Shown here: one piece after another, positions 3 to 52,783 of the stretch
How positions within the stretch are numbered: the first letter of the stretch is position 1
Layout: every line of letters starts with the position of its first letter
From: a virus
DNA: 58,223 nucleotides
Strand: one strand, 5' to 3'
Virus record (IMG/VR): IMGVR_UViG_3300042429_001477
Coordinates: 1 to 58,223 of that record
Notes under the pieces: model-generated
Database searches by the model: none
Seen by the model: only the letters and a program-made list of their open reading frames with translations
Told to the model about the DNA's origin: nothing
Program-made: the position numbers and the translations under genes

Positions 3-111
3 AATTCTAATATTTTTTTAAAACCATTCATCTAAACTGGGGAACAGCTTAAGATAAATAACTAAAATAATTATACACAATGCCAGGTAGAGTTTTAAAT
101 TTTTTAGAATT
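3..111 (+). promoter_or_regulatory. Nested inverted repeats around late promoter and start
   Basis: AATTCTAA (3-10) pairs with TTAGAATT (104-111), and TTTAAAAC (17-24) pairs with GTTTTAAA (92-99). The two helices are in register, separated by a 6x4 internal loop. The loop holds the late promoter and the ATG at 80. The arms are AT-rich, so chance is possible. Confidence 0.4.
54..67 (+). promoter_or_regulatory. T4-type late promoter
   Basis: ATAAATAACTAAAA, 12 nt before the start at 80. The following leader (TAATTATACACA) is almost the same as that of the promoter at 51461. The leader has no Shine-Dalgarno sequence. Confidence 0.75.
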
Positions 112-670
112 TTCTGATAAATATTCTAACGCAAGCAGCGAACCGACTAGCATAGACGACTTAACAGGAGCAGCCGCAAATTTCGAAGAAGGCTTCGATG
201 ACGAAACATATGACCAACCACAAATAGGACCGAACAGACCTGTTTCTGGAAGCTATGAAGCAACTCCGTCTAAACCTGGAGAAGAAGGATCTCCTGCATT
301 CTCAGCAAGCAACACTGAAGAGATGAATGCTCCAAAAGAGGAGGAAGAAGATGAGACTGAGGAATCAGAAGAATCTGAAGAAGAAGAATCTGAAGAATCT
401 GAAGAAGTAGAGGAAGGAAATCCTGAAGCTGGTGCAAATCCTAAAAAGAAAGTTGAAGAAGGATTTTCTTTATTAAAAGGATTTTCAAAGTTTATAAATG
501 AAGAATATGAAGATCATGGTGACTATCCAAGTCTTTTTGATGAATATGCTGAGGAAGAAGAAGAAGAAGAGGAATACTACGATGAAGAAGAAGATGATGA
601 TGCTTGTCCGACATGTGGAGAAGCTCCAATCTCAAACGAGTACGGATACTCTTGTGGATGCAACATGTAA
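80..670 (+). CDS. Acidic protein with internal capsid-targeting-like motif
   Basis: Unrecognised 196-residue protein. About residues 90-115 are a low-complexity Glu/Asp/Ser run, and a second Glu/Asp/Tyr run fills about 155-180. Between them lies GFSKFINEE (near residue 135), which matches the tag found at the N-termini of many proteins in this window. The N-terminus (LNFLEF) is a weaker version. The C-terminus carries CPTC and CGC, a possible metal knuckle. It starts 12 nt after a late promoter and heads a co-directional run of small virion-type genes. A packaged core or internal protein is my inference; acidic core proteins such as T4 gp67 are a precedent in composition only. Confidence 0.7.
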   Translation: MPGRVLNFLEFSDKYSNASSEPTSIDDLTGAAANFEEGFDDETYDQPQIGPNRPVSGSYEATPSKPGEEGSPAFSASNTEEMNAPKEEEEDETEESEESEEEESEESEEVEEGNPEAGANPKKKVEEGFSLLKGFSKFINEEYEDHGDYPSLFDEYAEEEEEEEEYYDEEEDDDACPTCGEAPISNEYGYSCGCNM

Positions 671-690
671 AAAATCTTTAAGTTTTAGAA

Positions 691-1293
691 ATGGAACAGT
701 TTACCCCAATCGTCATTGCTTTCATAACTGGAGTATTAGGCCCGGTCTTGATTATACTAATTAAAAATCGACTAGATAAAATAGCTAAACCGGACATGTT
801 AACTGATGCTCTTAAGACTGGTGAACTAGTTACTGCACGTATTGATCACATAAGAGAAGATTTTAAAGCTGATCGAGTATGGATCTCTCAGTTCCATAAC
901 GGAGGGCACTTTTATCCAACTGGCAAGTCAATCGCTAAATTTAGCGTGATTTATGAAACTGTTTCTGCAAATACACAATCAATTCAAAGCAATTTTCAAA
1001 ACATTCCAGTAAATCTATTTACTAAATCAATGAATAGGTTATTAGAGGAAGATACGATTGAGATACCTGACTATAAAGATGAGACTATTCCTACATATGG
1101 CCTTAAGTATATTGCAGAAGAGTCTAATTGTAAATCTAGTTATCTTTTTTCGATAAAAACAATAGATGATAAATTTATAGGAGTCTTAGGCGTAGACTTT
1201 ACTAAAAGAAAGACTAGACTTGATCAAGAAGATATTAATCACCTAATCGTTCACTCTTCCTCTTTGGGCGGAGCCTTAATGAGCACACACTAA
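691..1293 (+). CDS. Membrane-anchored GAF-like sensor-type protein
   Basis: The 200-residue protein begins with one hydrophobic segment (about residues 5-24, rich in Ile/Val/Leu/Gly), which predicts an N-terminal membrane anchor. The rest has the look of a GAF-fold domain: an RVWISQFHNGG segment (near 72), a variable middle, then a strand-rich YLFSIKTIDDKFIGVLGVDF stretch and a final helix. GAF domains bind small ligands or mediate dimerisation, but no ligand can be named from the sequence. It lies 20 nt after the previous stop with no promoter of its own, so it is probably co-transcribed from the late promoter at 54. Function unknown. Confidence 0.6.
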   Translation: MEQFTPIVIAFITGVLGPVLIILIKNRLDKIAKPDMLTDALKTGELVTARIDHIREDFKADRVWISQFHNGGHFYPTGKSIAKFSVIYETVSANTQSIQSNFQNIPVNLFTKSMNRLLEEDTIEIPDYKDETIPTYGLKYIAEESNCKSSYLFSIKTIDDKFIGVLGVDFTKRKTRLDQEDINHLIVHSSSLGGALMSTH

Positions 1294-1296
1294 GAT

Positions 1297-1491
1297 ATGA
1301 AGAGACTCGTAGAAAACTTTAGAGAGTTTCTAGATCTAGCTAAGATCAATCAAGGACCGGATGGATGGACAATCTATGGAGCCAATCCCAAAAAGAAAAA
1401 GCGAAAGCTTAAAACTCGTCGTCCTCATCGTCTAGGTCGAATTGATCTTGAAAAGAGAGACGAGGATTTATCGGAGAATACTCCCAATTAA
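1297..1491 (+). CDS. Small basic tagged protein
   Basis: A 64-residue protein starting 3 nt after the previous stop. The N-terminus (VENFREFLDLA) fits the aromatic pattern of the capsid-targeting-like tags but lacks a clear xxE cleavage end. The middle is strongly basic (KKKKRKLKTRRPHR), as expected for a DNA-associated internal protein. It contains GANPKKK, which is also present in the protein at 80-670. Its 3' end overlaps the convergent gene 1409-1666 by 83 nt, so one of the two could be spurious. I think both are real. Confidence 0.5.
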   Translation: MKRLVENFREFLDLAKINQGPDGWTIYGANPKKKKRKLKTRRPHRLGRIDLEKRDEDLSENTPN

Positions 1492-1666: not shown

Positions 1667-1703
1667 GGTTTATTATATCTCAAAACGGTAGATAAGTTTT
1701 AGA

Positions 1704-1735: not shown

Positions 1736-2200
1736 ATGCGAATTAAGAGACTTTATGAGGCTGATGATATTCAACAGATGCCTATGAACGGACAAGCACC
1801 AGCTGCAATGCCTCAAGCTGCACCACAAATGCCAGACATGGCTCCACCAACTCCAGTACAATCACCGGCGGAGATGATGCCAGATTTTAGCTTTGAGGAA
1901 GAGCCACATGGAAAAAAAGAAGACCCGCAAGAGGCTTTACCTCAGCCTGATGTGATGAACTTGACTATTCAAGAACTAATGGATCGTTGCCAAAGCATCA
2001 ATCCTTTGGTATGCATGGGATTGGAGCAATTTATCAACTCAAATAAGGATGCAATCATGAGCCAAACTACAGGAGATTCTCCTGAAGAGGATGTATTAGA
2101 TACTGAGACTGATCTTAACTTTTCAAAACAAATGGAACCACAAGCTCCTGAATTTTCACTAGATCAGCCGGCTGCAGAGTTAGACTTTCCACAAGAATAA
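1736..2200 (+). CDS. Pro/Met/Gln-rich virion-type protein
   Basis: A 154-residue protein with a very short tag-like start, RIKRLYEADD, where LYE followed by Ala matches the prohead-protease pattern. Residues 15-45 are low-complexity Pro/Met/Ala/Gln, and the C-terminal third is acidic. A short central helical piece (about 75-105, with two Cys) is the only part that looks folded. It follows a late promoter and its stop lies 3 nt before the next gene. No family was recognised. A core or internal head protein is plausible but unproven. Confidence 0.6.
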   Translation: MRIKRLYEADDIQQMPMNGQAPAAMPQAAPQMPDMAPPTPVQSPAEMMPDFSFEEEPHGKKEDPQEALPQPDVMNLTIQELMDRCQSINPLVCMGLEQFINSNKDAIMSQTTGDSPEEDVLDTETDLNFSKQMEPQAPEFSLDQPAAELDFPQE

Positions 2201-2203
2201 TCA

Positions 2204-2941
2204 GTGAAGATAGAATCGATTAAGATAATCGATGGTAAGAATCGATGGAGTGAGTCTAGGAAAAAGTTAGTTCATATAGTATTGGATTTAGGCAAATATG
2301 AAGAATTGCCTTCAAATAAAATACCTGGATTCTATGAAAGACTTAAGAAATACATTCCGACTCTACAGAAACATCGATGCTCAGTAGGAAGAGCTGGAGG
2401 ATTCTTTAAAAGGGTAAAAGAGGGTACATGGATGGGTCATATTATTGAACACATAGCCCTAGAACTTCAGACTCTTGCTGAAATGGAAACTGGATGGGGT
2501 AGAACAAGAGGAGTAAAAGGAAAGATTGGGATATACAATGTTGTTTTTGAATATGTGGATGCAGACTGCGGAAAGACTGCGGCAAATGAAGCGATTCGGG
2601 TGGTTAAGGAAATAATCGCTGATCGTGATCCAAAGATAGATGGAATAGTCTCAAAATTAAAAAAGATGAAGAAAAAAAGATTAGACGAAGGTTTTGGTGC
2701 TATTTCAATGGAACCAGATACGGCAAAACGAATACTTGAACCTGATACCTCACGTGCAAGCGCTATGATGTTTTATTCGGGATCATCTGGGACCGTTCCA
2801 ACTCACTGGAATAATTCTCCGTTCCTTGCGGGAAGAAGTGGGGGCAGCGCATTCGGATCTAATCCTAGAGCAGACAAAAAGACTAGAGTAATGTCATACC
2901 AAGAATTTGTGGAGGCTCATAAGAAGTTTACGAATAAATAA
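2204..2941 (+). CDS. Cyanophycin synthetase N-domain homologue, stand-alone
   Basis: A 245-residue protein. Residues 1-135 match the N-terminal domain of cyanophycin synthetase (CphA): KIESIKIIDGKNRWS at the start, PSNKIPGFYERL (36-47), EGTWMGHIIEHIALELQ (73-89) and VVFEYVDADCG (113-123). The ATP-grasp and Mur-ligase-like domains of CphA are absent. HIIEH (79-83) is an HxxEH motif, the inverted zinc motif of some metallopeptidases, and CphA N-domains have been described as having hydrolytic activity on the polymer in some species. The tail (from 140) is unrelated and ends with VMSYQEFVEAHKKF, like the packaging tags but at the C-terminus. The start is GTG, 3 nt after the previous stop. I infer a virion-associated amide or peptide hydrolase; the substrate is unknown. 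Confidence 0.8.
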   Translation: MKIESIKIIDGKNRWSESRKKLVHIVLDLGKYEELPSNKIPGFYERLKKYIPTLQKHRCSVGRAGGFFKRVKEGTWMGHIIEHIALELQTLAEMETGWGRTRGVKGKIGIYNVVFEYVDADCGKTAANEAIRVVKEIIADRDPKIDGIVSKLKKMKKKRLDEGFGAISMEPDTAKRILEPDTSRASAMMFYSGSSGTVPTHWNNSPFLAGRSGGSAFGSNPRADKKTRVMSYQEFVEAHKKFTNK

Positions 2942-2973
2942 TAAAAAAGAGAGAATTAAATGGCTTACGTAAA
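2927..2973 (+). promoter_or_regulatory. Weak inverted repeat around late promoter
   Basis: TTTACG (2927-2932) pairs with CGTAAA (2968-2973) at codons 3-5 of the next gene, with the late promoter in the loop. Six pairs only, so this is the weakest example of the arrangement. Confidence 0.3.
2934..2947 (+). promoter_or_regulatory. T4-type late promoter
   Basis: ATAAATAATAAAAA, 12 nt before the ATG at 2960. The element overlaps the stop codon of the preceding gene, whose last residues are TNK. Confidence 0.75.
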
Positions 2974-3262
2974 GAGTTTTAAGAGCTTTCAAAATGCTGA
3001 AGAAAAGGCATCCAAAGAGGTCGAAGCTGGTGCAAATCCTCAAATGATTAAGGAGGAGGACGTAATGCTGACCGACCCTACATTAAAGGACTTAAGCGCA
3101 AAGATATTACAATACAAGACTCAAATAAACCTTTGGGAAAAAGCAATCGAGGAACGTAAAAAAGTATTGGGCGATACTCTTGCCAAAAACGCAGCAGCCG
3201 CTCAAAACGCAGCTGCAAACCAGCCACAGGCACCAACTCCAACACCAGCACCCACTGCATAA
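2960..3262 (+). CDS. Small tagged coiled-coil protein
   Basis: A 100-residue protein with the N-terminus AYVKSFKSFQNAEEK, a variant of the capsid-targeting-like tag. It shares AGANP with 80-670 and 1297-1491. Residues 40-75 should form a helix or coiled coil (LSAKILQYKTQINLWEKAIEE), and the C-terminus is an Ala/Gln/Pro/Thr linker. It has its own late promoter, and the next ATG overlaps its stop. Small head-internal protein by inference. Confidence 0.6.
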   Translation: MAYVKSFKSFQNAEEKASKEVEAGANPQMIKEEDVMLTDPTLKDLSAKILQYKTQINLWEKAIEERKKVLGDTLAKNAAAAQNAAANQPQAPTPTPAPTA

Positions 3263-3705
3263 TGGAAAGAAAGATAAAAACATATCATCAATACATAAAT
3301 GAATCGACTAAAGAAGTTGTATACCCAACTAATTTTAAAGGCATGGTACAGGGCGCACTTGGTGGACTATATACTTCGATTATGGCTATAGCTAGGGAGC
3401 TAGCAAATGAGAAGGCTGCCCGAAATCCAAGCAGATATGATGGTAATGTTCAGGAAGTTGACATCACCAGAGCAATGAACATGATCTTTCATAGTGATTG
3501 GAAAAAGAAGATGAAATCACAAGCGTTGGATCAAGTAATGAAGAGTTCAATGGAAAGAGCCGGCAAGCAGGACACAGTAATAGCGAAAAAGAACCAACGA
3601 GCTATGGGTAGAATGATGGGGGACAAAGAATTTAACTTGAATGTTGATAAATCGAGCGTTAGATTTAGTGACGAAAAAGGAAATGGTACTGGTAAAAATC
3701 AATAA
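3262..3705 (+). CDS. Tagged internal protein, T4 IP-like N-terminus
   Basis: A 147-residue protein whose start, KIKTYHQYINES, is the closest match here to the T4 internal-protein signal KTYQEFIAEA. INE followed by Ser is the predicted prohead-protease cut. The mature part would be basic and Met-rich (about 95-125: KKKMKSQALDQVMKSSMERAGKQ), suiting a DNA-associated internal protein. It starts at the stop of the preceding gene, so it is translationally coupled. No enzymatic family was recognised. Confidence 0.65.
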   Translation: MERKIKTYHQYINESTKEVVYPTNFKGMVQGALGGLYTSIMAIARELANEKAARNPSRYDGNVQEVDITRAMNMIFHSDWKKKMKSQALDQVMKSSMERAGKQDTVIAKKNQRAMGRMMGDKEFNLNVDKSSVRFSDEKGNGTGKNQ

Positions 3706-8185: not shown

Positions 8186-8494
8186 TTACCCTAAGTATTT
8201 TTCAATAAGTCCATCTGCATCATCTGGGCCAAGTTTTCCCTTTTCAACAAGCTTAACTAGCAGTGCAGCAATTACAAGTTTTTCAGGCATGTCATCATCC
8301 ATTACCTCAATTTCTCCATTTTCAGCAGCTTCTGCAAGATCCCCATAAGCATCCTCAGCAGCCTCTTCAACGTCTTCCTCAGACCCTACTAATTCTATTA
8401 GTTCATCAAGTAAGGATTCGTCAATTTCAAATGGCATTTCTGGCTCCTCCATCTCGTTTACTCGATACTCTCTTAAATTCATGATTCTTCTCAT
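8186..8494 (-). CDS. Small acidic core-type protein
   Basis: A 102-residue, very acidic helical protein. Near the start, NLREYRVNE resembles the packaging tags; starting at the ATG at 8482 would place it at the very N-terminus. I keep 8494 because the late promoter at 8506-8519 has the usual 12-nt spacing to it. It has its own promoter and terminator and so is monocistronic. Small acidic prohead core proteins such as T4 gp67 are a possible analogue; the identity is not proven. Confidence 0.6.
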   Translation of the reverse strand: MRRIMNLREYRVNEMEEPEMPFEIDESLLDELIELVGSEEDVEEAAEDAYGDLAEAAENGEIEVMDDDMPEKLVIAALLVKLVEKGKLGPDDADGLIEKYLG

Positions 8495-12602: not shown

Positions 12603-12926
12603 ATGAAAAATCATGTAAAGAAATTTGGTTCATTTGTCAATGAACATTTTCACTATCCGAGCACAAAAAAACTTAGGTCTCAATTAGTAGGAGGAAAAGG
12701 GCAAAAGGCTCAATATGATGAACTTGGAGGAGGAGATCAAGTTGAGTTGGAAAGTCAGTTTGCAGAATTAAGCGGCGACCCTGAACTAGCCAAAGCATTT
12801 GTTAGAAAGCTATCTAAATATAACTCGATTGAGGATATAAAGGCAGGCTTAGAACAAATGTTGGATGTTTTAAGAAATCCTAGGACTGAAGATAATGAAC
12901 CTGATTGGGACATGCGTAACTATTAA
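12603..12926 (+). CDS. Small tagged internal protein
   Basis: A 107-residue protein with a clear N-terminal tag, NHVKKFGSFVNEH, aligned with NHIKTFGQFVNES of the next gene. VNE is the predicted protease end. The mature part is acidic and helical, with DELGGGDQVELESQFAELSG in the middle, and has no recognised domain. Promoter and tag together look duplicated with those of 12986-13279, while the downstream parts differ, which suggests a tag cassette fused to different cargos. Confidence 0.65.
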   Translation: MKNHVKKFGSFVNEHFHYPSTKKLRSQLVGGKGQKAQYDELGGGDQVELESQFAELSGDPELAKAFVRKLSKYNSIEDIKAGLEQMLDVLRNPRTEDNEPDWDMRNY

Positions 12927-12940: not shown

Positions 12941-13000
12941 ATGATTTGAAAACTCTGAAAAAATAAATAAAAATAAACTAGTATTATGAATACAAATCAT
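12941..13000 (+). promoter_or_regulatory. Inverted repeat around late promoter and start codon
   Basis: ATGATTTG (12941-12948) is the exact reverse complement of CAAATCAT (12993-13000), which covers codons 3-5 of the next gene. The loop holds the late promoter and the ATG. Read-through RNA would fold; late RNA would lack the 5' arm. Confidence 0.5.
12963..12976 (+). promoter_or_regulatory. T4-type late promoter
   Basis: ATAAATAAAAATAA, 9 nt before the ATG at 12986. Same spacing and same upstream text (CTCTGAAAAA versus TTCTGAAAAA) as the promoter at 12580. Confidence 0.65.
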
Positions 13001-13279
13001 ATAAAAACGTTTGGTCAATTTGTGAATGAATCTACTGAAGCGGGTTGGGATCCAACTACTATTTCTTCTGTACAGGGAAAACTGGCGGTTACTAAAACTG
13101 GTAAACTGGACACAGCTACAATTCAAGCCCTTAAGGGTTATCAAGAAGGACACTCAATATCAGTAACTGGGAAGATAGATAAAGCAACTCTAGCAAGTAT
13201 GGGAATAAAAGGAAAATGGGTAGATGCAGGACATACATCGGCTGAACGAAAAGCAGGAATGAATTCAGCGATTCGATAA
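12986..13279 (+). CDS. Tagged peptidoglycan-binding-domain protein
   Basis: A 97-residue protein. Residues 1-14 are the tag (HIKTFGQFVNES, predicted cut after VNE). Residues about 25-70 match the PG_binding_1 repeat pattern: SVQGKLAVTKTGKLDTATIQ, then ALKGYQE, then SVTGKIDKATLASMGI. PG_binding_1 domains bind peptidoglycan and are usually attached to lysins; here there is no catalytic domain. A head-packaged wall-binding protein is my inference. It ends just before a bidirectional terminator. Confidence 0.75.
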   Translation: MNTNHIKTFGQFVNESTEAGWDPTTISSVQGKLAVTKTGKLDTATIQALKGYQEGHSISVTGKIDKATLASMGIKGKWVDAGHTSAERKAGMNSAIR

Positions 13280-15379: not shown

Positions 15380-15871
15380 TTAACTCACAAAATCGATAAA
15401 CTTATAATAGGTCGAGCCTATCTTAAAGTGTTCGTCGTTTACCATTTCGTCCTTACTTATCGATGAGACTACCTCGTTTCCTGCAGGAGAAGTCGAGCCG
15501 TCCTCAAAATAGTAATCAACAAATTCTTCACCTTTTTTACCAAGAATTAGGTTCTTGATCTTATATTTTTCAAAAATTTGTGGTATCTTATCTTTAAATG
15601 ATACATCATCGTCAAGAACCATAAAGATGGATGGATAATCTATTAACTTACCATCTTGACTAATAGCAGCAGACTGTTTTACATAATCGTCCTCAAGAAG
15701 ATCAGAATCAAGAGCAGAGGTATAGGTCTCTTTGTCCTTGAATGTGATTATCACAAAGGGAATCTTTGTTTGGATCGCATCCCTAACTTGGGTCCAAGTA
15801 TGACTAGTCTCTTCAGTAGTAGACTTTATGTCCTGCTGATAGTCTTCGTATAGTTTGATATATTTAGTCAT
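15380..15871 (-). CDS. Hypothetical protein with short tag-like start
   Basis: A 163-residue protein. The N-terminus YIKLYEDYQQD resembles the LYE-type tags, though the residue after Glu is Asp. The rest looks like a small alpha/beta fold (FVIITFKDKETY near 40, PSIFMVLDDDV near 80, IKNLILGKKGEEF near 105). No family was identified. It is first in the operon with the UvsY candidate and uvsW, under a late promoter. Confidence 0.6.
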   Translation of the reverse strand: MTKYIKLYEDYQQDIKSTTEETSHTWTQVRDAIQTKIPFVIITFKDKETYTSALDSDLLEDDYVKQSAAISQDGKLIDYPSIFMVLDDDVSFKDKIPQIFEKYKIKNLILGKKGEEFVDYYFEDGSTSPAGNEVVSSISKDEMVNDEHFKIGSTYYKFIDFVS

Positions 15872-17095: not shown

Positions 17096-17134
17096 TAGCC
17101 ATAATAAATAATAAAAAATATTTTAGGATGGCTA
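17096..17134 (+). promoter_or_regulatory. Inverted repeat that would mask the start codon
   Basis: TAGCCAT (17096-17102) is the exact reverse complement of ATGGCTA (17128-17134), whose first three bases are the start codon. The late promoter lies in the 25-nt loop. RNA reading through from the kinase gene would hide the ATG; RNA from the late promoter would not. Confidence 0.65.
17104..17117 (+). promoter_or_regulatory. T4-type late promoter
   Basis: ATAAATAATAAAAA, 10 nt before the ATG at 17128. The leader ATATTTTAGG resembles that at 32247 (ATATTTTGGG). Confidence 0.75.
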
Positions 17135-32222: not shown

Positions 32223-32260
32223 GAAGCCCTTAATAAATAATAAAAAATATTTTGGGCTTT
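32223..32260 (+). promoter_or_regulatory. Inverted repeat that would mask the protease start
   Basis: GAAGCCC (32223-32229) pairs with GGGCTTT (32254-32260, one G-U pair), which covers the first bases of the TTG start at 32259. The late promoter lies in the loop. RNA from upstream would fold; RNA from the late promoter lacks the 5' arm. Confidence 0.6.
32233..32246 (+). promoter_or_regulatory. T4-type late promoter
   Basis: ATAAATAATAAAAA, 12 nt before the TTG at 32259. The spacing supports that start. Likely the main promoter of the protease-scaffold and capsid genes. Confidence 0.75.
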
Positions 32261-34263: not shown

Positions 34264-35922
34264 ATGGCACGTACTAAAATTTTCAAACGTTCAAGCGACA
34301 ATCGCTTAGCGAACACATGGCAGCCGATTTTAGAAGGTTACGGTGCTGATGTTGCTAAGACTCCATGGTTAGCTGAGTATGCTCACAACCACGCGATCTT
34401 TGATAACACTACACCTATCTTCGAGCAAACGACTCCAGGTGTATTTTTCCAAACTCCAGGTTCTCTTGGTGGTTTTATGGGGAACCCATCAGCTCCAACA
34501 TCAGCAATGACTCCGTTCACTGCAGGTGCTAAGAATTCTTTCTCAGCTGATGCTAACGGTTCAGGTGATAAATTTCCATCACTTTTACCAGTTGCTATTC
34601 AAGTAGCAGCAAAAACTATTGGTTTTGACCTAGTTCCAGTTATCCCTATGGATTCTCCAGTTGGATTCCTTCCTTACTTGGATTATCTATATGCTGGCGG
34701 TAGAACTTCTACTGGTAACTTCGATCCTTATTTGGTTAAGTTAGAAGGTTTAACATCAGATAGCTTCGCTGTTGCTCTTACTCCTGGTGATGCAGTAGCT
34801 ATTGTTCCTGCTGGTGATTTCACAGCAGAGTTCGTTGGTTATTCACGTGTAGACGGTACAATAATCATCAAGATCACAGACGACGGTTCAGTTGACGGCG
34901 CTACTACTGCTGCTGCAGAGTATGTTGGTGCAGCGATTACTATCGATGGTAACGCCCTTGTTGTTGGTGCTGCATGTACTGGAGTTTCTCTAGTTTCTGC
35001 ATTAGAAAACCACATCTCTGGTTTCACTTCAGTATCTGATGCAGATTACGCAACTACTCCATTCAATGGTTCTTACCTTCCTTCTACAGGATCTGTACCT
35101 GGATCAATGAAGAGAGAAGCTGGTGAAAACTCTAAATTCCGTCAAATGGGATTAAGAATGTTCACTAAGTTTGTTGAGGCTGAGACTGACCAAGTTTCTA
35201 TCTCTGCAACTGTTGAGCAGATCCAAGACTTGAACAGAGTTTGGAACTATGACGTTATCTCTATGTTAGAGAACGTAGCGGTTAATGACTTGGCTCAATC
35301 AATCAACAAAAGATTAGTTGACCGTGTATTACAATTAGCTGATGTTCACTCTACAGAAGTTAACTTAGTTGAAGGTGGTGGTGGTGTTATTACTGACCTT
35401 GACTTGACTGCTGGTGGATTTGATAACACTTCTACATTACAAAGAAGATTAGTTACTAAAGTTCTTGAAATGGCAAACTTGATTTACCATAGAGGACGTT
35501 TCGGAGCTGGTACTTTCTTAGTAACTAATGGACGTGTTGCTTCTGCAATGGCTGATGTTGCTGGTTACTCAATCGCGCAAGTTCCAACTGATATGGGTGG
35601 AGTTGCAGGTAACCTTTACCCAGCTGGTAAAGTTTATGGAGTACAAGTTTACGTTGATCCTAACATGGCTTGGGGAGACTCAAGAATCATGATTGGTCGT
35701 AAAGGTGCTGACGAAGAGCCAGGTGTTAAATTCATGCCATATATCATGGCTGAATCTCTTCAGACTATTTCTGAAGGTACATTCTCTCCAAAAATCGGTA
35801 TGAAATCAAGATACGCGATTACTGAAGCTGGATGGCATCCTGAAACTCAGTACATTAATATTAATGTTACTGGAGCTGCTCTTGGAGTTCTTACAGGTTC
35901 AAATGTACTAGTAGGTATCTAA
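34264..35922 (+). CDS. 23: Major capsid protein, gp23-like
   Basis: A 552-residue capsid protein of the T4 gp23 family (HK97 fold). Recognisable parts: FLPYLDYLYAGGR (near 138), FRQMGLRMFTKFVEAETDQV (near 292) with the following helix, and the C-terminal PYIMAESLQTISEGTFSPKI. The N-terminus contains QPILEGYG; ILE followed by Gly (after residue 24) fits the gp21 cleavage rule, which would remove a 24-residue propeptide against 65 in T4. Its bases look smoother and more codon-biased than its neighbours, as expected for the most expressed gene. A strong terminator follows. Confidence 0.93.
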   Translation: MARTKIFKRSSDNRLANTWQPILEGYGADVAKTPWLAEYAHNHAIFDNTTPIFEQTTPGVFFQTPGSLGGFMGNPSAPTSAMTPFTAGAKNSFSADANGSGDKFPSLLPVAIQVAAKTIGFDLVPVIPMDSPVGFLPYLDYLYAGGRTSTGNFDPYLVKLEGLTSDSFAVALTPGDAVAIVPAGDFTAEFVGYSRVDGTIIIKITDDGSVDGATTAAAEYVGAAITIDGNALVVGAACTGVSLVSALENHISGFTSVSDADYATTPFNGSYLPSTGSVPGSMKREAGENSKFRQMGLRMFTKFVEAETDQVSISATVEQIQDLNRVWNYDVISMLENVAVNDLAQSINKRLVDRVLQLADVHSTEVNLVEGGGGVITDLDLTAGGFDNTSTLQRRLVTKVLEMANLIYHRGRFGAGTFLVTNGRVASAMADVAGYSIAQVPTDMGGVAGNLYPAGKVYGVQVYVDPNMAWGDSRIMIGRKGADEEPGVKFMPYIMAESLQTISEGTFSPKIGMKSRYAITEAGWHPETQYININVTGAALGVLTGSNVLVGI

Positions 35923-38586: not shown

Positions 38587-39954
38587 TTAGCTATTATACT
38601 CTTTTTGAAGTGCTTTTTTCAATTCTTGTAAATCTTCTCGATACATGTTCAGAGGCTCCTTCTTCTTAATCTCTTCAAGTTCCCTCTCTTTTTGAAACTC
38701 AGCACTTATTAAGTCTTCATATGTTTCCTTAGTAAGTGAATGAATCGGCATCCCTAATAGGTATTGATATGATCCATTTATCTCATCAAAGTTATCTGTC
38801 TCCAAGTAGAGAATTATCTCTTTTCTAGGAACATTATTGATCTTTAACTTACCCTCAATTATGGCTTTTACGAAACGTGCTCTATTTGAGAGTAGAGCGA
38901 GTTCTTGATTTAGAGTATCAATAATAAATTGCTTTCTCTTTTCATAAAAAGTGAGCCTAAATTGAACGAAATATTCAATAATCTCACTGGCTGAATTAAA
39001 GATTTTTAATTTACCGTGTTCGTCCAATACTGTAAAGTTCTCAGTCTGGCGTTCTTCCATCTTTAGGAGTCTCTTTAATCTTACTGAGTCACCTAACATC
39101 TTAAGATCTTCTCGTCTAAACTTAAGAACATAATTGATGTTAGACTTGCAGTTATTTTCGTAACTTGCAATTCTTCGGGAATCTTCAAGATCGATTAAGT
39201 GCTGGTCGAATTTTTCATAAGTAACAGAAGGAGGAAGCTCTGTAATATTCACAGTCGTGGTATTTTTTACTTCATACTTTCCACTAAATATCCATGAAAA
39301 CTTTTCGGGGTCTATTAGTTCGCAACCTCCAATAAACTCTCTGTTCCATGGAGTAGGTTCAGCATATTTTTTACCCTCTAGAGATTTTAAACAGGCATCG
39401 ATTAGGCTAATTGGATTGCGATTTAATATATTTGTTGCGAAGCCTACTGCAATCCCGCTACCGCCATTCAGGAGGACAGTTGGGATAATAGGTAAGAAAT
39501 ATTTAGGTTCGATCTCATTGCCTTCCTCGTATCGAGATTCTAATAATTCAAAATCTTTATATAGGAGTCTAAAGTTCTTATGTAACTTGGTTGCTATATA
39601 ACGAGGAGCGGCTGCTTCTGGCGAACGTAAGGATCCAAACTGACCAATATCTTCTAATACTGGCATTGAGTTCTTAAACCTTTGTGCCATGCCAATAATT
39701 GCTGAATTAAGAGAGCCGTCTCCATGGTGATAAAAAGCGTCTGCCGCCACCCGACCGGCTAATTGAAAGATCTTCATTGGTTTTTCTGAACCGTTCTTCC
39801 ATACTTTATTTGCAACAAAGATTACTTTGCGTTGAGTTGGCTTGAATCCATCGATCACTGATGGAATTGCCCGCTCTTCAACGACATATACTGCATACTC
39901 CTTATAGTCGTTATCTAAATAGTCGGTTACTGTCTTTATTTCTGGCTTTCGCAT
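38587..39954 (-). CDS. 52: Type II topoisomerase subunit, gp52-like
   Basis: A 455-residue GyrA/ParC-type subunit that breaks and rejoins DNA. AIPSVIDGFKPTQRKVIF (near 28) starts the domain, YHHGDGSLNSAIIGMAQ (near 75) is the conserved core, and AAAPRYIATKL (near 115) contains the catalytic Tyr. Length matches T4 gp52 (442). The partner gp39-like subunit is encoded upstream at 40426-42288 on the same strand, separated by two small genes. Confidence 0.93.
   Translation of the reverse strand: MRKPEIKTVTDYLDNDYKEYAVYVVEERAIPSVIDGFKPTQRKVIFVANKVWKNGSEKPMKIFQLAGRVAADAFYHHGDGSLNSAIIGMAQRFKNSMPVLEDIGQFGSLRSPEAAAPRYIATKLHKNFRLLYKDFELLESRYEEGNEIEPKYFLPIIPTVLLNGGSGIAVGFATNILNRNPISLIDACLKSLEGKKYAEPTPWNREFIGGCELIDPEKFSWIFSGKYEVKNTTTVNITELPPSVTYEKFDQHLIDLEDSRRIASYENNCKSNINYVLKFRREDLKMLGDSVRLKRLLKMEERQTENFTVLDEHGKLKIFNSASEIIEYFVQFRLTFYEKRKQFIIDTLNQELALLSNRARFVKAIIEGKLKINNVPRKEIILYLETDNFDEINGSYQYLLGMPIHSLTKETYEDLISAEFQKERELEEIKKKEPLNMYREDLQELKKALQKEYNS
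38588..38601 (-). promoter_or_regulatory. Candidate early/middle promoter element
   Basis: Minus-strand GAGTATAATAGCTA, 11 nt before the start at 38576. It differs at two positions from the element at 5222-5235, with the same distance to the start. Confidence 0.4.
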
Positions 39955-44918: not shown

Positions 44919-44961
44919 TGACATATTAAAATAAATAACTAAAAAAGTATCTAACATGTCA
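44919..44961 (+). promoter_or_regulatory. Inverted repeat covering a start codon
   Basis: TGACAT (44919-44924) pairs with ATGTCA (44956-44961), which includes the start codon. A second pair, AGATACT (44901-44907) with AGTATCT (44946-44952), crosses it. The late promoter lies between the arms in both. Confidence 0.45.
44931..44944 (+). promoter_or_regulatory. T4-type late promoter
   Basis: ATAAATAACTAAAA, 11 nt before the ATG at 44956. Confidence 0.75.
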
Positions 44962-46923
44962 TATTTGTTAAATTATAAAAATTGGAGAGCACTATATGAA
45001 AGCCAAACTAATATTTTTGAAGATGGAGAAGACCCATACGGAGGAGTTGGTATGATTGATGATACCAAAATCAAAGATAAAGGCACAGTTGATCCATTTG
45101 CAGACATGCCAAAAGAGGGCAAGAAAAGATTAGAGTATTTAGTAAATAAAGCAGGAGACCTAGATTCACAGGCGATAAAAAAGGCAGGAGCAGCGCCAGC
45201 AACTTCACTTCTACCCTACGATGCAATAACTGACTGGATGATTACTGCAGGTAAGCCTACTACAAGGAGCGATGGAAAAGGAGGATATAAAGATTTTTCA
45301 CCAGAATGGAAGAAAAGATTTAAAGATAGAGAGCCTTCCATGAAATTAGAAGACTGTATTCAATGTATGCAGTATTGGAATGGAATAATTGATACGACTA
45401 AAACAAAAAAAGAAACTATTGAAATAAACGGTAAACCGTATGATGTTGCAAATTATGACACTGCTCGAGTAATTAGACAATTGGATCAATTAAGTAATCT
45501 CAAAAAAGTTAAATCTTTAGTAGAAGAGGCATGGAAGGCTAAAGGCATTATATATTTTAATACTGGCTCGCCTTCAGAATATGAGTTTGAAGGAACTAAG
45601 TATTCTATTGAGAAAGACAAACAGGTAACATTTGACCCAAATTTAATCGTTGAAAAGAGTAAGATTTTACTAGAAAAAGCGAAAAAAACATTTGTAAACA
45701 CTGGAAAAACCAGAAGAAATTCAAAGACTGATATGCTTTCTCCAAACCCCAATTCAGATAATGTATGGTTTGATACAGGAGAGGGAGGAAAATATTATTC
45801 AAAGAAATCTAGAGATCAAACTGGAAGCTTTTGGCTATGGTATCAAATAATATCGGACGATGCTCAATTTCAAAAGTTATTAGCTAGATTCGATGATCCA
45901 ACTTATGTGAGGACAGTATTCACAAAAATGACGGAGCAGGATAAGATAAACATAATAAAGGGTATTTCGGACGCTGCACAGAAGAAATTTGAGAAAGGAT
46001 CAGTCGGAGCAATGGAAGGGATCTATGGCGCTACTTCCATCGTGTGGTGGCCGGTTGAAGCTAAAGAGACGATGCCAAAAACAACGGTCCTTAAACCAGC
46101 TAGTCCAGGAATTGACGTTGAATATGAAAATGAATGGGACTTTTCTTGGCCGTATGCTAAAGAAGGAGGAGTAGGAAAAGAACTTGCAATGACCTACTTT
46201 AAGAGTGATTCAGCAATAATACAAGATGGCAAGGACAAAGAGATAGACAATGCAGTCAAGCAAATCATGGCTGAAATTAAGAGCAAAAATGGTACTCTTA
46301 AATCATTAAAGTATAGAGTAGTAGCATCGACGAGTGACGAACCTTCTAAATATGCAAGCCCTAATAAAGTAGCCGCAAAATACGATATTGCAAATAATCA
46401 ACCTTTAGTTAGAGACCGTGCTAAGGTAATCGAAACTGCCCTAACTGCTGCGATCACTGCGAACGGAATTGATCCGACCCTGGTCACTAAAGACGGCGAA
46501 GACCTTACTCCTAATAATATTCTAGACGATGGAAGTGCAAAATACCAAGAGAAAAAATGGATGCGGCTTGATCATAAGGACCCTAGAGCAACGGCTGCTA
46601 CTGATGCTGAATATAAAGCACTATTCGCTAAACCTAAACATTCAGGGCTTCTATTTAATATAGTATATACAACCATTGAAAAGGAAAAGAGTGAACCTAC
46701 TCCTGAAGAAACGACCGTATCTGATTATGAGGTAGTAGGAGAATGGCTATTCGAGATCAAGTGGGCAGGCGGAGGAAGCTACAAGAAAAAGAGAAGAAGA
46801 ACTCACACTAGAAGACCGATGAGGGGAATCCCTTGGGATAAATTGTTTCCGCCTCTTCCTGCAGGTGGAGGATGGAGCGTCGAAGACTTATGTGACGCAT
46901 ATGGTAGATCAGGACCAGGATAG
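44956..46923 (+). CDS. Tagged OmpA-like protein, copy 1
   Basis: A 655-residue protein. The tag is SYLLNYKNWRALYESQ, nearly the same as in the paralogue at 47617; LYE followed by Ser is the predicted cut. From about residue 410 to 510 the pattern of an OmpA-like peptidoglycan-binding domain is visible: TYFKSDSAIIQDGKDKEI, then YRVVASTSD, then NNQPLVRDRAKVIETALTAA. The C-terminus is basic (KKKRRRTHTRRPMRG) and Gly/Pro-rich. I infer a packaged protein that contacts the cell wall. It is faced by a secreted CAP gene. Confidence 0.7.
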   Translation: MSYLLNYKNWRALYESQTNIFEDGEDPYGGVGMIDDTKIKDKGTVDPFADMPKEGKKRLEYLVNKAGDLDSQAIKKAGAAPATSLLPYDAITDWMITAGKPTTRSDGKGGYKDFSPEWKKRFKDREPSMKLEDCIQCMQYWNGIIDTTKTKKETIEINGKPYDVANYDTARVIRQLDQLSNLKKVKSLVEEAWKAKGIIYFNTGSPSEYEFEGTKYSIEKDKQVTFDPNLIVEKSKILLEKAKKTFVNTGKTRRNSKTDMLSPNPNSDNVWFDTGEGGKYYSKKSRDQTGSFWLWYQIISDDAQFQKLLARFDDPTYVRTVFTKMTEQDKINIIKGISDAAQKKFEKGSVGAMEGIYGATSIVWWPVEAKETMPKTTVLKPASPGIDVEYENEWDFSWPYAKEGGVGKELAMTYFKSDSAIIQDGKDKEIDNAVKQIMAEIKSKNGTLKSLKYRVVASTSDEPSKYASPNKVAAKYDIANNQPLVRDRAKVIETALTAAITANGIDPTLVTKDGEDLTPNNILDDGSAKYQEKKWMRLDHKDPRATAATDAEYKALFAKPKHSGLLFNIVYTTIEKEKSEPTPEETTVSDYEVVGEWLFEIKWAGGGSYKKKRRRTHTRRPMRGIPWDKLFPPLPAGGGWSVEDLCDAYGRSGPG

Positions 46924-47603: not shown

Positions 47604-47632
47604 AACTTATTTAAAAATGGGTGGTTATTTAT
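47590..47632 (+). promoter_or_regulatory. Late promoter complementary to codons 3-6
   Basis: ATAAATAAC (47590-47598, the promoter core itself) is the exact reverse complement of GTTATTTAT (47624-47632) within the coding start. Nine pairs with the ATG in the loop, possible only in read-through RNA. Confidence 0.5.
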
Positions 47633-49161
47633 TAAATTATAACAAGTGGAGAGCTCTATATGAGTCAGCTCAACTAAATGAGGCAATTGAGATACCTGGA
47701 TTTAATCTTAAACCGGTAGAAAAAGGAAATAAGCTAGTTTCTAGAGTTTCGTATCCATCACTTGGAATTAATCCAAAATACGATAATGAGCTAAATTCAA
47801 TCATGACTAAAACAGTCGGTAAGGAGACAATTCCTAAGTTATTTGTAGTAAATGGTAGTGAAGTTGATTCTCAGGCTGAATATCGAAAAATATTTACTGC
47901 GCTAGTTTATGGAGTGATCCAATATTTTGAAGATGATACATTAAAGGATAAGATCGATGATATTGCTCCACAACTTAAATTCACAACAACGATTTCAGGT
48001 AAAGTACAATTGTATGGTTCAAGTAGTGGAAGGATTAGTACACAAGGACAAATTGTGGAACCGAATACTGGTGGGGCAGTCTATATTTCAAACACAGCTG
48101 ACACTAAAGAGTCATCAGTAATCGGGATATGTAAATATATCAATGGATTTAATTTACAGAATTGGATGACAGGTAATTTCCTACAGATAGATCCAACGAA
48201 GATTCTTGATCAAAACAATGTAACTGATTTAACTGGAGCGATGAGAGAGGCATATGTTGAAGAACGAGGATTCTTACGATTAGTCAGTCCAGCAAGTGCA
48301 AGCATTACTGCTGGAGCAAGGGGTACTGAGACTGAAACTGTTCAAGGTGCACAGGCGCAAACTGGTAATGCAGAGATTGCATTTACTGCTGGAAAATCAG
48401 ATATTGATGATAAAGGAGTTAAAGTTGATGCAAATCACCCTAAAGTAAAAGAGATTGGTGACAAGATCATAGGGTATTTAGGAAACAATGGTGTAATTGA
48501 TTCAATGACGTTAACCTCATCTGCAAGTCCAGAATATGGATCGATCCAAAACGTTGCAGGCTGGGAAAAATCTTATCCTAAGGGGACTACTGGAACAGCT
48601 GATCCTGGTGCAGGAGCGGATGACGCTGGTAAAAACATGAAGCTTGCATACGATCGAGGAGTCGTATTTAGTAATGCGTTATACGCTTATTTAGGAGGAC
48701 ATGTAAAACAAAATGCAATTGCCGTTTCTTGGAAGATCTCAACTGATGCTCCAGGAGGAGGAAAGAATATCACTTACTCAGTTGCTACTAAAAGTGAATC
48801 TCCACAAACAATCACAAAAACGACTTACCAAGGAGCAAAAGTATCTGTCAAAAATGAAGATAACTCAATCGTAGTCTATAAGATTACGTATGATGCGTCA
48901 GCAATTGCTAAAAATAAAGATGGACTTTTCACAAAAGAACGAATTGATTATAATAAATTAAAAGTAGGTGATAAGATCATAGTATACGCTAAGGACATGA
49001 AGACTAAACTTGGAAAAGATGAAGATGAACCTGTCACAGTAAGTAAGGTTGAAGATAATAATGTTTACGTAAATTATAAAGAAAACACCGATATCTTGAT
49101 ACCTAAAGATAGATACATTAAACAAGTAGGAAAAGCTGAAAAGCAAGAAGCTGAAATCTAA
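47617..49161 (+). CDS. Tagged OmpA-like protein, copy 2
   Basis: A 514-residue paralogue of 44956-46923. The tag is GYLLNYNKWRALYESAQLNEA, with two possible cuts (LYE-S, LNE-A). Residues about 250-375 show the OmpA-like pattern: AEIAFTAGKSDIDDKG, DSMTLTSSASPEYGS, then NMKLAYDRGVVFSNALYAYL. The last 100 residues are a Lys-rich beta domain. Like copy 1, it is read towards a secreted CAP gene and has a terminator in the overlap region. Confidence 0.7.
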   Translation: MGGYLLNYNKWRALYESAQLNEAIEIPGFNLKPVEKGNKLVSRVSYPSLGINPKYDNELNSIMTKTVGKETIPKLFVVNGSEVDSQAEYRKIFTALVYGVIQYFEDDTLKDKIDDIAPQLKFTTTISGKVQLYGSSSGRISTQGQIVEPNTGGAVYISNTADTKESSVIGICKYINGFNLQNWMTGNFLQIDPTKILDQNNVTDLTGAMREAYVEERGFLRLVSPASASITAGARGTETETVQGAQAQTGNAEIAFTAGKSDIDDKGVKVDANHPKVKEIGDKIIGYLGNNGVIDSMTLTSSASPEYGSIQNVAGWEKSYPKGTTGTADPGAGADDAGKNMKLAYDRGVVFSNALYAYLGGHVKQNAIAVSWKISTDAPGGGKNITYSVATKSESPQTITKTTYQGAKVSVKNEDNSIVVYKITYDASAIAKNKDGLFTKERIDYNKLKVGDKIIVYAKDMKTKLGKDEDEPVTVSKVEDNNVYVNYKENTDILIPKDRYIKQVGKAEKQEAEI

Positions 49162-49182: not shown

Positions 49183-49209
49183 AAGGGAGTCTAACGACTC
49201 CCTTTTTTT
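49183..49209 (+). terminator. Rho-independent terminator
   Basis: Perfect 9-bp stem AAGGGAGTC / GACTCCCTT with loop TAAC, followed by T. It overlaps the end of the opposing CAP-like gene. Confidence 0.9.
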
Positions 49210-49823: not shown

Positions 49824-50057
49824 ATGGCAAATCCAGTTATGAACTACAACCAGTTTATGTCAGCATTCAAAAAAGCTGAAGCGGGATACCGTGGAAAAGC
49901 TAATGTTGCGGCTAACGATAGATCAGGTTCTATGAAGATCAATCAAGGTTTAGTTGAAGGTCCAGTTAAAGGAAAAGGAACTCCTCAACTTGATAAGTAT
50001 ACTAAACAATACATGACTACTGCAAAGAACAAGAGTGTAGTAGGTAAGAAGAAGTAA
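49824..50057 (+). CDS. Small basic tagged protein
   Basis: A 77-residue, strongly basic protein. The N-terminus VMNYNQFMSAFKKAEAG is tag-like, and GLVEGPVKGKG contains LVE followed by Gly, a classic prohead-protease site. The C-terminus (KNKSVVGKKK) is basic. Size and charge resemble T4 internal proteins that bind packaged DNA. Function inferred. Confidence 0.6.
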   Translation: MANPVMNYNQFMSAFKKAEAGYRGKANVAANDRSGSMKINQGLVEGPVKGKGTPQLDKYTKQYMTTAKNKSVVGKKK

Positions 50058-50077: not shown

Positions 50078-50335
50078 ATGAATAGAGCTATCATGAGATT
50101 TGAGCAATATGCTCTACTTGAAAAGAAGGGCGACCTTAAGAAGCTAGTAGGTAAGGACGAGGACGAAGAGCTTACGATAAATGATGCCAAGAAGATTGGG
50201 GTCAAGGTTGCTAACATGGAAGGAGAGGACAAGAAGAAATACGTTGGTATCATCAACTTTTTAGGGGCTTCATGTAACATCTATAACGAGCTTTGGAAGA
50301 ATTATAAACGAACGAGAGATCGTAAAAAAGACTAA
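50078..50335 (+). CDS. Small charged protein, tag-like start
   Basis: An 85-residue protein beginning NRAIMRFEQYALLEKKG, a loose tag. The rest is charged and helical (DEDEELTINDAKKIGVKVAN; KNYKRTRDRKKD at the end). Not recognised. Its stop overlaps the next start by one base (TAATG). Confidence 0.55.
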   Translation: MNRAIMRFEQYALLEKKGDLKKLVGKDEDEELTINDAKKIGVKVANMEGEDKKKYVGIINFLGASCNIYNELWKNYKRTRDRKKD

Positions 50336-51468: not shown

Positions 51469-51474
51469 CTAAAA
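51461..51474 (+). promoter_or_regulatory. T4-type late promoter
   Basis: ATAAATAACTAAAA, overlapping the stop of the preceding gene (protein end QNK), 13 nt before the ATG at 51488. Confidence 0.75.
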
Positions 51475-51487
51475 TAATCGATACACA

Positions 51488-52063
51488 ATGGCAGGTTTAC
51501 CATATTGGACCAACTCAGTCGCAGCTCGAGAATACTACGAACCGATCTATAAGAATCAGTTTGAGGTGATCTTGAACCCACCGGCAGTAATCTCTGGTAG
51601 CAATGTAGCTCTTTTAGTGGAGCACGTGACCGAGATTTCAGGTCTGCCTGAAATAAATTCTAACGGGACTCTAGTTGAACAGTCTTACAAGTTCGCTAAA
51701 AGATCCTTTGCTGGAGGAATCCCAGACACTACAACTGCTGACTTAACTATTAAATTTACAGTCAACTTAAATGAAGAAAATGACGCATATGTCTATAATA
51801 TCCTTAGGGCATGGAACGATATCGTTTACAATCCTCAAACGGGTAGTCAAGGACTAAAAAGAGACTATGTAGGTTCAATGTCAGTACACGTTGCAAACAA
51901 GACTGGTGAGATCTTTAGAGAATGGAACTTTCCAGTGATCATTCCAAATGATAAACTGACTGAACTCTCTTTAAATTACACTGAAAATGGAATCTATGAC
52001 GTAACGATGAAATATAGAGCAGACTACTGGGTTGAAACTAGAGTAGGTCAGATTAACGTATAA
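51488..52063 (+). CDS. 19: Tail tube protein, gp19-like
   Basis: A 191-residue tail tube subunit (T4 gp19: 163). FEVILNPPAVISGSNVALLV (near 26), the central NPQTGSQGLKRDYVGSM loop (near 118), and the terminal NGIYDVTMKYRADYWVE are typical of the T4-type tube fold. It would form the inner tube through which DNA passes. The sheath gene (gp18), normally next to it, is not in the window. It has its own late promoter. Confidence 0.88.
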   Translation: MAGLPYWTNSVAAREYYEPIYKNQFEVILNPPAVISGSNVALLVEHVTEISGLPEINSNGTLVEQSYKFAKRSFAGGIPDTTTADLTIKFTVNLNEENDAYVYNILRAWNDIVYNPQTGSQGLKRDYVGSMSVHVANKTGEIFREWNFPVIIPNDKLTELSLNYTENGIYDVTMKYRADYWVETRVGQINV

Positions 52064-52078
52064 AAAATCGAGATAAAA

Positions 52079-52783
52079 ATGGAAATGTTTAACACACATC
52101 GTCGAGATATCCTAAATTTCGATAACTATATGGATCTTAAGAAACCAGGATTCGGAGGACCTAAATCTGCAATCGAATTACGGGATGCTCGAGGTAATAT
52201 GAATGATCGCGATCCTAAACTTAAAGGATTTAGACGAACTGTTGAGAGAGACCCTGCTTTTTCTCACCCTGTATACGACCCTACGTACAAGGCAATGACT
52301 GGCGATCTTGTTTATCGACAAGAAAAAAAGAAGCCGTTTACGTATGATGATCGAATCACTGGAATTCCAGTTGTAGAGATCGAACCAGTAGAAGAGGGAA
52401 GAGCCTATTCTTCATTTACCCGATTCATTAATGAAGAAGTAGAAGATGAGTTAGAAGACGAATTGGATGCTGAATTAGAAGATGAGTTAGAAGATGAGTT
52501 AGAAGACAATCAATATGCTGAATTAGAAAATGATTATGAAGAGAGTGACTCAGATGATTGGAACGAAGATGAATATCGTCAGGAGGCAACTGCTTTCAAT
52601 AATACTATGTCAGACCTGCGTAGCATAGAGGCTATGCTTCGAGGATTTGAAAACGGAGAAAACTTTGATGATGAAGAGGAAGACTTTGGTACAAACCCAT
52701 TAGAAGACGAGGAGAGTCCGTTTGGAGAGATACCCGACTGGGTAAAGGAGCTTCAAGCTCCAGAAGATTCTGAAGGATATTAA
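52079..52783 (+). CDS. Acidic protein with internal tag-like motif
   Basis: A 234-residue protein. The first half is polar with several DP/RD pairs. SSFTRFINEEVE (near 117) is tag-like and internal, as in the protein at 80-670. It is followed by repeats of EDEL (about 122-145, encoded by 12-bp units) and further acidic runs to the end. Starts 15 nt after the tail-tube gene and ends at a terminator. Perhaps a core protein cut at INE; not proven. Confidence 0.6.
   Translation: MEMFNTHRRDILNFDNYMDLKKPGFGGPKSAIELRDARGNMNDRDPKLKGFRRTVERDPAFSHPVYDPTYKAMTGDLVYRQEKKKPFTYDDRITGIPVVEIEPVEEGRAYSSFTRFINEEVEDELEDELDAELEDELEDELEDNQYAELENDYEESDSDDWNEDEYRQEATAFNNTMSDLRSIEAMLRGFENGENFDDEEEDFGTNPLEDEESPFGEIPDWVKELQAPEDSEGY

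Follow-up and report, generated by a model that had tools for sequence, protein, structure and literature searches.

Tagged proteins in the window

IMG/VR virus record IMGVR_UViG_3300042429_001477 (positions 1 to 58,223, here called the window) comes from a large T4-like phage, of whose genome it covers 58,223 bases, with a GC (guanine plus cytosine) content of 37%. A set of its proteins carries a short motif, mostly near the N-terminus, in which two aromatic residues three apart precede an aliphatic-x-Glu site and which probably is a capsid-targeting sequence of the T4 type. The same species is represented by a 176-kb contig (G001) whose capsid and protease/scaffold proteins are identical to those of the window, and related capsid genes occur on contigs of up to 271 kb. 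Among named records of the phage collection, the capsid protein is nearest to those of uncultured megaphages such as LR756500 and the Lak phages, followed by MaF61, pT24, MA9V and PAU, all matches being below 60% identity; a megablast search of this collection with window positions 20000-44000 gave no match. As relatives we used 11 related contigs (G001-G011), whose genes were called with a simple codon-usage caller. The functions of several replication- and virion-type families, including the topoisomerase-type protein 38587, were assigned by reading the sequence.

Motif counts refer to proteins of at least 60 residues (n = 67 in the window). We scanned the first 30 residues for a strict motif, [FYW]xx[FYW][LIVM]xE, and the first 26 residues for a unified motif, [FYW]xx[FYW]x(0-2)[LIV]xE. 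The following proteins, named after their lower coordinate, have tags in the N-terminal region (a slash marks the predicted cut; TAAATAA positions are relative to the start codon).

3262..3705, plus strand: tagged protein of 147 residues, strict tag KTYHQYINE at 3277-3303.
12603..12926, plus strand: tagged protein of 107 residues, strict tag KKFGSFVNE/H at 12618-12644, TAAATAA at -26 and -22.
12986..13279, plus strand: tagged peptidoglycan-binding protein, strict tag KTFGQFVNE/S at 13004-13030, TAAATAA at -22.
17128..17685, plus strand: tagged protein of 185 residues, strict tag PSYLQYIKE/A at 17146-17172, TAAATAA at -23.
44956..46923, plus strand: tagged protein of 655 residues, spaced tag NYKNWRALYE/S at 44971-45000, TAAATAA at -24.
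47617..49161, plus strand: tagged protein of 514 residues, spaced tag NYNKWRALYE/S at 47635-47664, TAAATAA at -26.
50078..50335, plus strand: conserved protein of 85 residues, spaced tag RFEQYALLE/K at 50096-50122.
8186..8494, minus strand: tagged protein, LREYRVNE at 8453-8476, TAAATAA 36 and 40 bases before the start at 8482.
21547..23505, plus strand: protein of 652 residues, N-terminal NWLRLNE at 21571-21591, C-terminal SSFKDFL at 23470-23490 without E, TAAATAA at -26.
1736..2200, plus strand: short-tag protein, IKRLYE/A at 1742-1759, TAAATAA at -31.
15380..15871, minus strand: short-tag protein, IKLYE/D at 15845-15859, TAAATAA at -28.

Forms of the tag

The first-pass annotation had described a single recurring motif, and all peptides that it quoted were found within ~15 bases of where it placed them. 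Their recurrence is non-random and the motif is enriched, but they fall into five forms rather than one uniform motif. Form (a), the strict aromatic-xx-aromatic-[LIVM]-x-E, occurs in 3262, 12603, 12986 and 17128. In form (b), one or two residues separate the aromatic pair from LxE, as in 44956 and 47617 (YxxW-RA-LYE) and in 50078 (FxxY-A-LLE); 8186 is supported as a further member, its G005 relative reading FREYKLNE. Form (c) consists of [LI][YF]E only, with no aromatic pair at the T4 positions (1736 and 15380), and the N-terminus of 21547 (NWLRLNE) is intermediate between the spaced and the short form. Form (d) is an aromatic pair without the cleavage E, found at the N-termini of 80, 2960, 49824 and 52079 and at the C-termini of 2204 and 21547, and form (e) comprises full internal motifs in protein 80 (482-502) and protein 52079 (52415-52435).

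80..670, plus strand: acidic protein, N-terminal NFLEF (98-127) without E, internal FSKFINE at 482-502, TAAATAA at -25.
2204..2941, plus strand: fusion protein, LxE junction KKRLDE at 2672-2689, C-terminal SYQEF at 2894-2917.
2960..3262, plus strand: protein with N-terminal SFKSF at 2975-3001, without LxE at the right spacing, TAAATAA at -25.
49824..50057, plus strand: aromatic-pair protein, N-terminal NYNQFMSAF at 49842-49868 without E, TAAATAA at -24.
52079..52783, plus strand: acidic protein, internal FTRFINE at 52415-52435, without a TAAATAA of its own, behind 51488, which has one.

The aliphatic-x-Glu site is present in the strict and spaced window tags and absent from the form (d) copies; the predicted N-terminal cuts in the window fall at residues 8-16. 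Although listed among the tags, the N-termini of 80, 2960, 49824 and 52079 and both C-terminal copies lack the site at which they would be cut. Protein 1297, formerly counted as a looser form, found no support: this weakest listed member has neither the E nor the late element described below and was passed over by the gene caller.

The WRALYE type is the same tag with two extra residues, as the alignment of strict and spaced forms in homologs shows. YNKWRALYE of 47617 aligns with YSQW-LNE in its G003 relative, and two homologous CHAP proteins, 42% identical over ~215 residues from residue 1, read WKRLYE (G006) and FKGFLNE (G004). A logo built on the 84 unique strict tags of ten relatives (all but G005) reads [ILV]K[ST][FY]SQ[FYW][ILV]NE/[SNA], with K at -8 in 50 of the 84; the T4 tag also has K there.

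Several families retain their tags across relatives and further IMG/VR loci. Homologs of 3262 occur in 7 of the 11 relatives, all with a strict tag, and 33/33 IMG/VR loci of this family, some of them near-identical, keep the aromatic pair and [LIV]xE with 0-1 extra residue. The 17128 family has a strict tag in 12/12 IMG/VR loci that include the N-terminus (YLQYIKE, YSQFVNE, FSRYLVE, YFQYVNE), and its homologs in G007 and G009 carry spaced forms. Protein 50078 has homologs in 10/11 relatives, nine of which show a form of the tag. For the short tags, 1736 has the same form in G005 and RRLLE in G006, the tag being absent from the G002 homolog as called; [IL][KR]L[FY]E was found in 6/8 homologs of 15380, the remaining two, as called, beginning later. 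The internal strict motif is kept in 5/7 members of the protein 80 family, window included, and in 10/11 relatives for 52079, and the C-terminal FxxF[LIM] of 21547 in 8/8 members (window and G001 included), one of which has a correctly spaced E. Among the relatives, a homolog of 12603 occurs only in G001, and an IMG/VR pattern scan for relatives of 44956 and 47617 returned the same-species contig alone.

Enrichment in the window and its relatives

The strict motif occurred in 5/67 window proteins (4 without the topoisomerase-type protein), compared with 0.95 expected from internal windows and a mean of 0.26 (maximum 2) in 200 N-terminal shuffles. For the unified motif we counted 8/67 (7 without the topoisomerase-type protein), with 1.3 expected and a mean of 0.7 (maximum 4) in 1000 shuffles. 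This motif exceeded shuffles in all 11 relatives as well (z 4.7-15.7), for example in 21/196 proteins of G001 (19 after removal of topoisomerase and UvsX matches) and 24/257 of G003 (23 after removal of false positives), the lowest relative being G011 with 5/92 (4 after removal). The motif search with shuffled controls that had been suggested as a check thus yielded enrichment in the window and in every relative.

Six control phages showed no excess of the unified motif comparable to that of the relatives. Outside the relatives, the counts were 3/232 in T4 (IPII, IPIII and one probable chance match), 1/261 in PAU, 5/266 in pT24 (z 1.9), 2/144 in MaF61, 2/378 in Lak-A1, 2/219 in RB49, 1/143 in S-PM2, and 20/500 in LR756500, where internal windows predicted 5.4 and shuffles gave 6.2 (maximum 16). 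A bare [LIV]xE[AS] proved too weak to serve as a tag (10/67 versus 5.7 expected, with a top value of 10 among 200 shuffles); the signal therefore resides in the aromatic pair.

Twelve replication-type families contained the motif in 7/117 homologs, every one of them in the topoisomerase region, so the equal occurrence in replication proteins that would have refuted the first-pass annotation was not seen. The topoisomerase match is a coincidence.

38587..39954, minus strand: topoisomerase-type protein, false positive of the strict motif at 39877-39897.

Its YAVYVVE lies in a conserved mid-domain region that reads YAxYV[VI]E in 8 homologs from the relatives. The UvsX-type N-terminus FNKFNDLLEK is likewise a false positive of the scan in the relatives, and FKDFIKE in the ligase/cytidylyltransferase family (17697) stands mid-protein and is absent from several members, including that of the window. 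The window member (17697-19571) combines an RNA-ligase-like domain, below the Pfam cut-off, with a cytidylyltransferase-like domain and has homologs in 11/11 relatives.

The upstream TAAATAA element

We scored TAAATAA up to 60 bases before the start codon. It mostly lies ~25 bases before the start and resembles the T4 late promoter, TATAAATA. In the window it precedes 12 of the 17 listed genes and 6 of the 52 others (p 7.7e-6); the listed genes lacking it include 2204, at both possible starts, and 1297. Across the 11 relatives, 88/159 tagged genes have the element versus 283/1711 others (p 1e-25), the others including UvsX-type matches and three tagged genes that span fetched pieces. The association was seen both for genes without an upstream same-strand neighbour (50/58 tagged versus 145/759 others) and for genes with a same-strand gene ending just upstream (38/101 versus 138/952). 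It was not an artefact of overlapping stop codons, since it persisted for stop-free elements (73/144 versus 243/1671).

The element is frequent before sheath (10/11), scaffold (11/11) and tail-tube (11/11) genes and occurs in 3/117 members of the twelve replication-type families. The tagged genes share this late-type element with these virion genes. Its sequence and placement suggest a late promoter; if so, tagged genes would be expressed like virion genes.

Protease, scaffold repeats and capsid protein

32259..34235, plus strand: gp21-type prohead protease fused to scaffold, phrog_207 (E-value 3.9e-34), TAAATAA at -25.
33144..33599, plus strand: scaffold repeat region, about eleven 14-residue units, consensus [IV]xYxxY[LIV]xExLNxS.
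34264..35922, plus strand: major capsid protein, gp23-type, phrog_138 (E-value 5.4e-35).

As had been proposed, the phage encodes a gp21-type protease: besides the phrog_207 match, the best solved match to the model of the protease domain is T4 gp21 (5jbl; Foldseek E-value 1e-10, target template-modelling score 0.76-0.78). H81, S136 and S137, which we take to be the catalytic residues of this type of protease, are invariant across 26 sequences. A possible cleavage site of the capsid protein itself is TPWLAE at 34360-34377.

The protease is followed by 14-residue scaffold units such as INYAEYIKENVNNS and IKYQNYLAEELDKG, eight of which contain the strict motif in the window. Among 78 matched loci, 68 have a homolog of at least 600 residues, and each of these (68/68) holds 5-10 strict motifs; 458/460 spacings of up to 60 residues between them are multiples of 14. 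The repeat region was modelled as a long helix at low confidence. This scaffold-like region, fused to the protease, may be a counterpart of the gp22-type core of T4. By eye, LR756500 has degenerate 14-residue units at the same place behind the protease, and none were seen in the pT24, PAU, Lak-A1 and T4 proteins inspected in the same way. We had considered tags to be copies of the scaffold repeats; a tag position matrix (see Discussion) weakened this to four common anchors.

Proteins carrying the tag

Clustering of 205 tagged proteins from 13 genomes (the 11 relatives, LR756500 and PAU; 3 skipped) gave 125 clusters, 77 of them singletons, and several tagged families are present in 7-10 of the 11 relatives. 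A Pfam scan of 112 tagged proteins matched 4 PG_binding_1, 3 NUDIX, 2 phage lysozyme, 2 CHAP and 1 VanY domain, together with one MoxR/AAA-type and one borderline HAD match and single weak matches to other families. Protein 12986 of the window matches PG_binding_1 with an E-value of 4.8e-7. T4 lysozyme e has a tagged homolog in G003 (27% identity, E-value 1e-11; Pfam Phage_lysozyme), and tagged proteins of G002 and G009 share an N-terminal domain, peptidoglycan-binding-like by reading, with an untagged G005 protein (E-values 8e-11 and 2e-18).

The envelope-type domain formerly noted among the cargo has weak but consistent structural support in 47617, which probably carries an OmpA/MotB-like domain. 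The top Foldseek matches are MotB/OmpA (best E-value 4.7e-3, probability 0.99), obtained on a low-confidence model with a mean predicted local distance difference test score of 44.7 and ten-residue means of 44-84 over residues ~250-390. Protein 44956 shows a weak profile similarity to this OmpA-like region (hhalign E-value 2.7e-4, probability 41), and a sequence search with 44956 and 47617 gave no solved structure. The minus-strand genes 46928-47530 and 49191-49742, which adjoin this tagged pair, have signal-peptide-like starts by reading; 46928-47530 matches phrog_16914 (sporulation protein).

The HxxEH domain, by contrast, is not part of the tagged cargo in the ordinary sense that had been assumed. 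It is the N-terminal, cyanophycin-synthase-like part of 2204 (Pfam PF18921, E-value 8.4e-44) and lies on the N-terminal side of the LxE, at a gene-fusion junction. The downstream part, probably a head protein, is a separate protein in loci L335-L338, where it starts MRLKRLVE/GFGA, the window junction reading KKRLDE/GFGA. In loci L333 and L334 the cyanophycin-synthase-like domain precedes other partners, and the junction reads SIRRIL[NR]E.

Two further observations concern other window proteins. Gene 691-1293 encodes a hydrophobic N-terminus and a GAF-like domain slightly under the Pfam cut-off. Another shared N-terminus, [MA]FINWGxExPEQ-like, is joined to differing C-terminal parts in window protein 36391-36996, in G001 (3348, 14327) and in G005 (107990, 119425).

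Comparison with known systems

An excerpt of a review (PMC9026906) assigns targeting in the 10-residue T4 IPIII signal mainly to residues 4 and 7, and processing to residues 8 and 10. Read on MKTYQEFIAE, those positions hold Y, F, I and E and coincide with the strict motif's four anchors, so the strict tags match T4-type signals at mapped positions, as had been predicted. The strict motif is matched by T4 IPII, IPIII and gp23 residues 59-65 (FGSFLTE/A). We take gp23 to be cut after E65; since residues 59-65 carry the full motif, it marks a protease substrate in T4 gp23 too. The window tags resemble those of IPII and IPIII in being N-terminal, ~10-20 residues long, with four mapped anchors and K at -8, and in being encoded by a genome that also has a gp21-type protease. 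Unlike in T4, there are more tagged proteins per genome: 19/196 in the 176-kb contig versus IPII, IPIII and one probable chance match among 232. The set accordingly goes beyond the T4 repertoire, as the first-pass annotation held, and is also larger than in RB49 or S-PM2. A second difference from the T4 internal proteins is that peptidoglycan-acting and NUDIX proteins are tagged, that spaced, short, internal and C-terminal forms occur, and that the scaffold repeats bear the anchors. In T4 itself, gene 61.1 (18966-19130; hypothetical, 54 residues, below our length limit) starts MKTFKEFIKED and matches the unified motif, and a small RB49 protein (11412-11588) has a T4-type tag-like start, MIGFKQFVEEN.

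Other phages offer partial parallels. In phiKZ and SPN3US, according to the excerpts available, the head protease cuts after glutamate and many proteins are packaged; these are known there and predicted here. The same excerpts give mostly 111-254 residues for the N-terminal propeptides of SPN3US, unlike the predicted cut at residue 8-16 here, and the propeptides predicted for window proteins do not reach the length (mostly >100 residues) of the phiKZ/SPN3US type. P1 DarB is reported to be directed into the head by N-terminal residues, as is predicted here for the tagged proteins. PAU N-termini of the type MK[TSG][LI]xxL[YF]E are alike in that many small proteins, several of them encoded beside the gp21-type gene, bear a short tag of the LYE type. 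Unlike the window phage, PAU uses a separate dialect without the aromatic pair and without unified-motif excess; in PAU (JQ362498) the short form stands in 22/261 N-termini versus 2.8 expected, and 18 of the 22 start MK[TSG] and read L[YF]E. The PAU short-tag genes partly cluster around the gp21-type gene, for instance at 100248-101696 and 110719-113735. LR756500 has gene arrays starting MK[YF]I..Y..FL.E, a third dialect, at 253382-257720 and elsewhere (counted from base 60001). Titles and opening lines of abstracts in the open-licence literature held nothing on the tags of this lineage, the PAU MKTLxxLYE N-termini or the 14-residue-repeat scaffold, nor did passages of PMC2993671 treat internal proteins.

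Discussion

The motif, its N-terminal placement and conservation, the protease gene, the late-type element and the absence from replication-type families together argue that window proteins probably carry T4-type capsid-targeting sequences on an enlarged and variable cargo. While the head is being assembled, the aromatic pair would dock the protein to the scaffold of the prohead, and the gp21-type protease would then cut at [LIV]xE, freeing the mature protein inside the head. Variable members may further be ejected along with the DNA, and where they contain domains that bind or cut peptidoglycan they may act on the cell wall or periplasm. Tagged members conserved in most relatives would be parts of the prohead core, and 50078 and 52079, present in 10-11 of the 11 relatives, are more likely such parts than delivered cargo. 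Aromatic-pair copies without E, the C-terminal ones included, may dock uncut.

Several points weigh against this interpretation. The evidence is at the sequence level, and docking, cleavage, packaging and ejection are inferred from it. The spacing before LxE varies (0-2), the E is absent in some listed proteins, and a redundant second [LIV]xE behind the tag shows no enrichment (13/94 versus 17.5 expected). The relatives are not independent, G001 and G005 being close, and among the 205 tagged proteins are some chance matches as well as 6 false positives of the UvsX type, while PAU and LR756500 contribute 20 each. At most 23 of the 112 scanned proteins match Pfam, leaving at least 89 without a Pfam clue to function. 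The tag position matrix found at most 3 internal places per genome at its threshold and recovered no scaffold repeat. Finally, eleven virion-type families have TAAATAA in 39/116 members, nearly all in three families, and the capsid gene in 0/11, which would be expected only if the element heads operons.

The strongest alternative is that the motif is only a gp21-type cleavage signature on structural head or core proteins, with little or no delivered cargo. It accounts for the motif at the T4 gp23 site, inside acidic core-like proteins and in most scaffold repeats, and for the tagged families conserved in 7-10 of the 11 relatives. We nevertheless consider it unlikely, given the 125 clusters and 77 singletons among the 205 tagged proteins (a set that includes false positives) and given that NUDIX, CHAP, VanY and the T4-lysozyme homolog resemble variable cargo rather than building blocks. 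T4 genetics, in the review excerpt, also separates the targeting residues (4, 7) from the processing residues (8, 10). Much less probable is that a short module was copied among N-termini by paralogy and serves some other purpose, for instance association with membrane, ribosome or tail: some tagged genes are indeed paralogs in arrays (LR756500), but the same anchors occur in proteins without detectable mutual similarity, in the interior and at the C-terminus of proteins, and within the scaffold. An origin by chance or from AT-rich gene starts can practically be dismissed, for although the window has 37% GC and K, F, N and I are frequent at tagged N-termini, composition-preserving shuffles and internal windows give far fewer matches than observed, other T4-like genomes lack a comparable excess, and the association with TAAATAA is independent.

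Within the capsid-targeting interpretation, we tentatively propose that the tag could be a one-unit mimic of the scaffold, because most of the approximately eleven helical scaffold repeats bear the same aromatic pair and LxE. A tagged protein might then join the core like a loose repeat, and one protease would dice the scaffold and free the cargo. The C-terminal FxxF copies, which lack E, would serve for docking without being cut, and large phages would use tag dialects matched to their own scaffolds. This proposal is speculative, and we regard it as considerably less secure than the capsid-targeting role itself.

This kind of signal is known from T4. As far as our searches reach, what is new is how large the set is in this lineage, the presence of cell-wall proteins in the cargo, a C-terminal form lacking E, and scaffold repeats that bear the same anchors. 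Packaged proteins that enter the host with the DNA are usually identified only by proteomics on cultured phages; a sequence-readable tag combined with an independent promoter-like signal would allow the proteins that large uncultured phages probably package to be listed. The idea of the T4 internal proteins would thereby extend to cell-wall enzymes and NUDIX hydrolases, and the scaffold repeats would suggest, in a form open to testing, how the scaffold is recognized by the T4 tag. The tag might also be exploited to load proteins into the heads of large phages.

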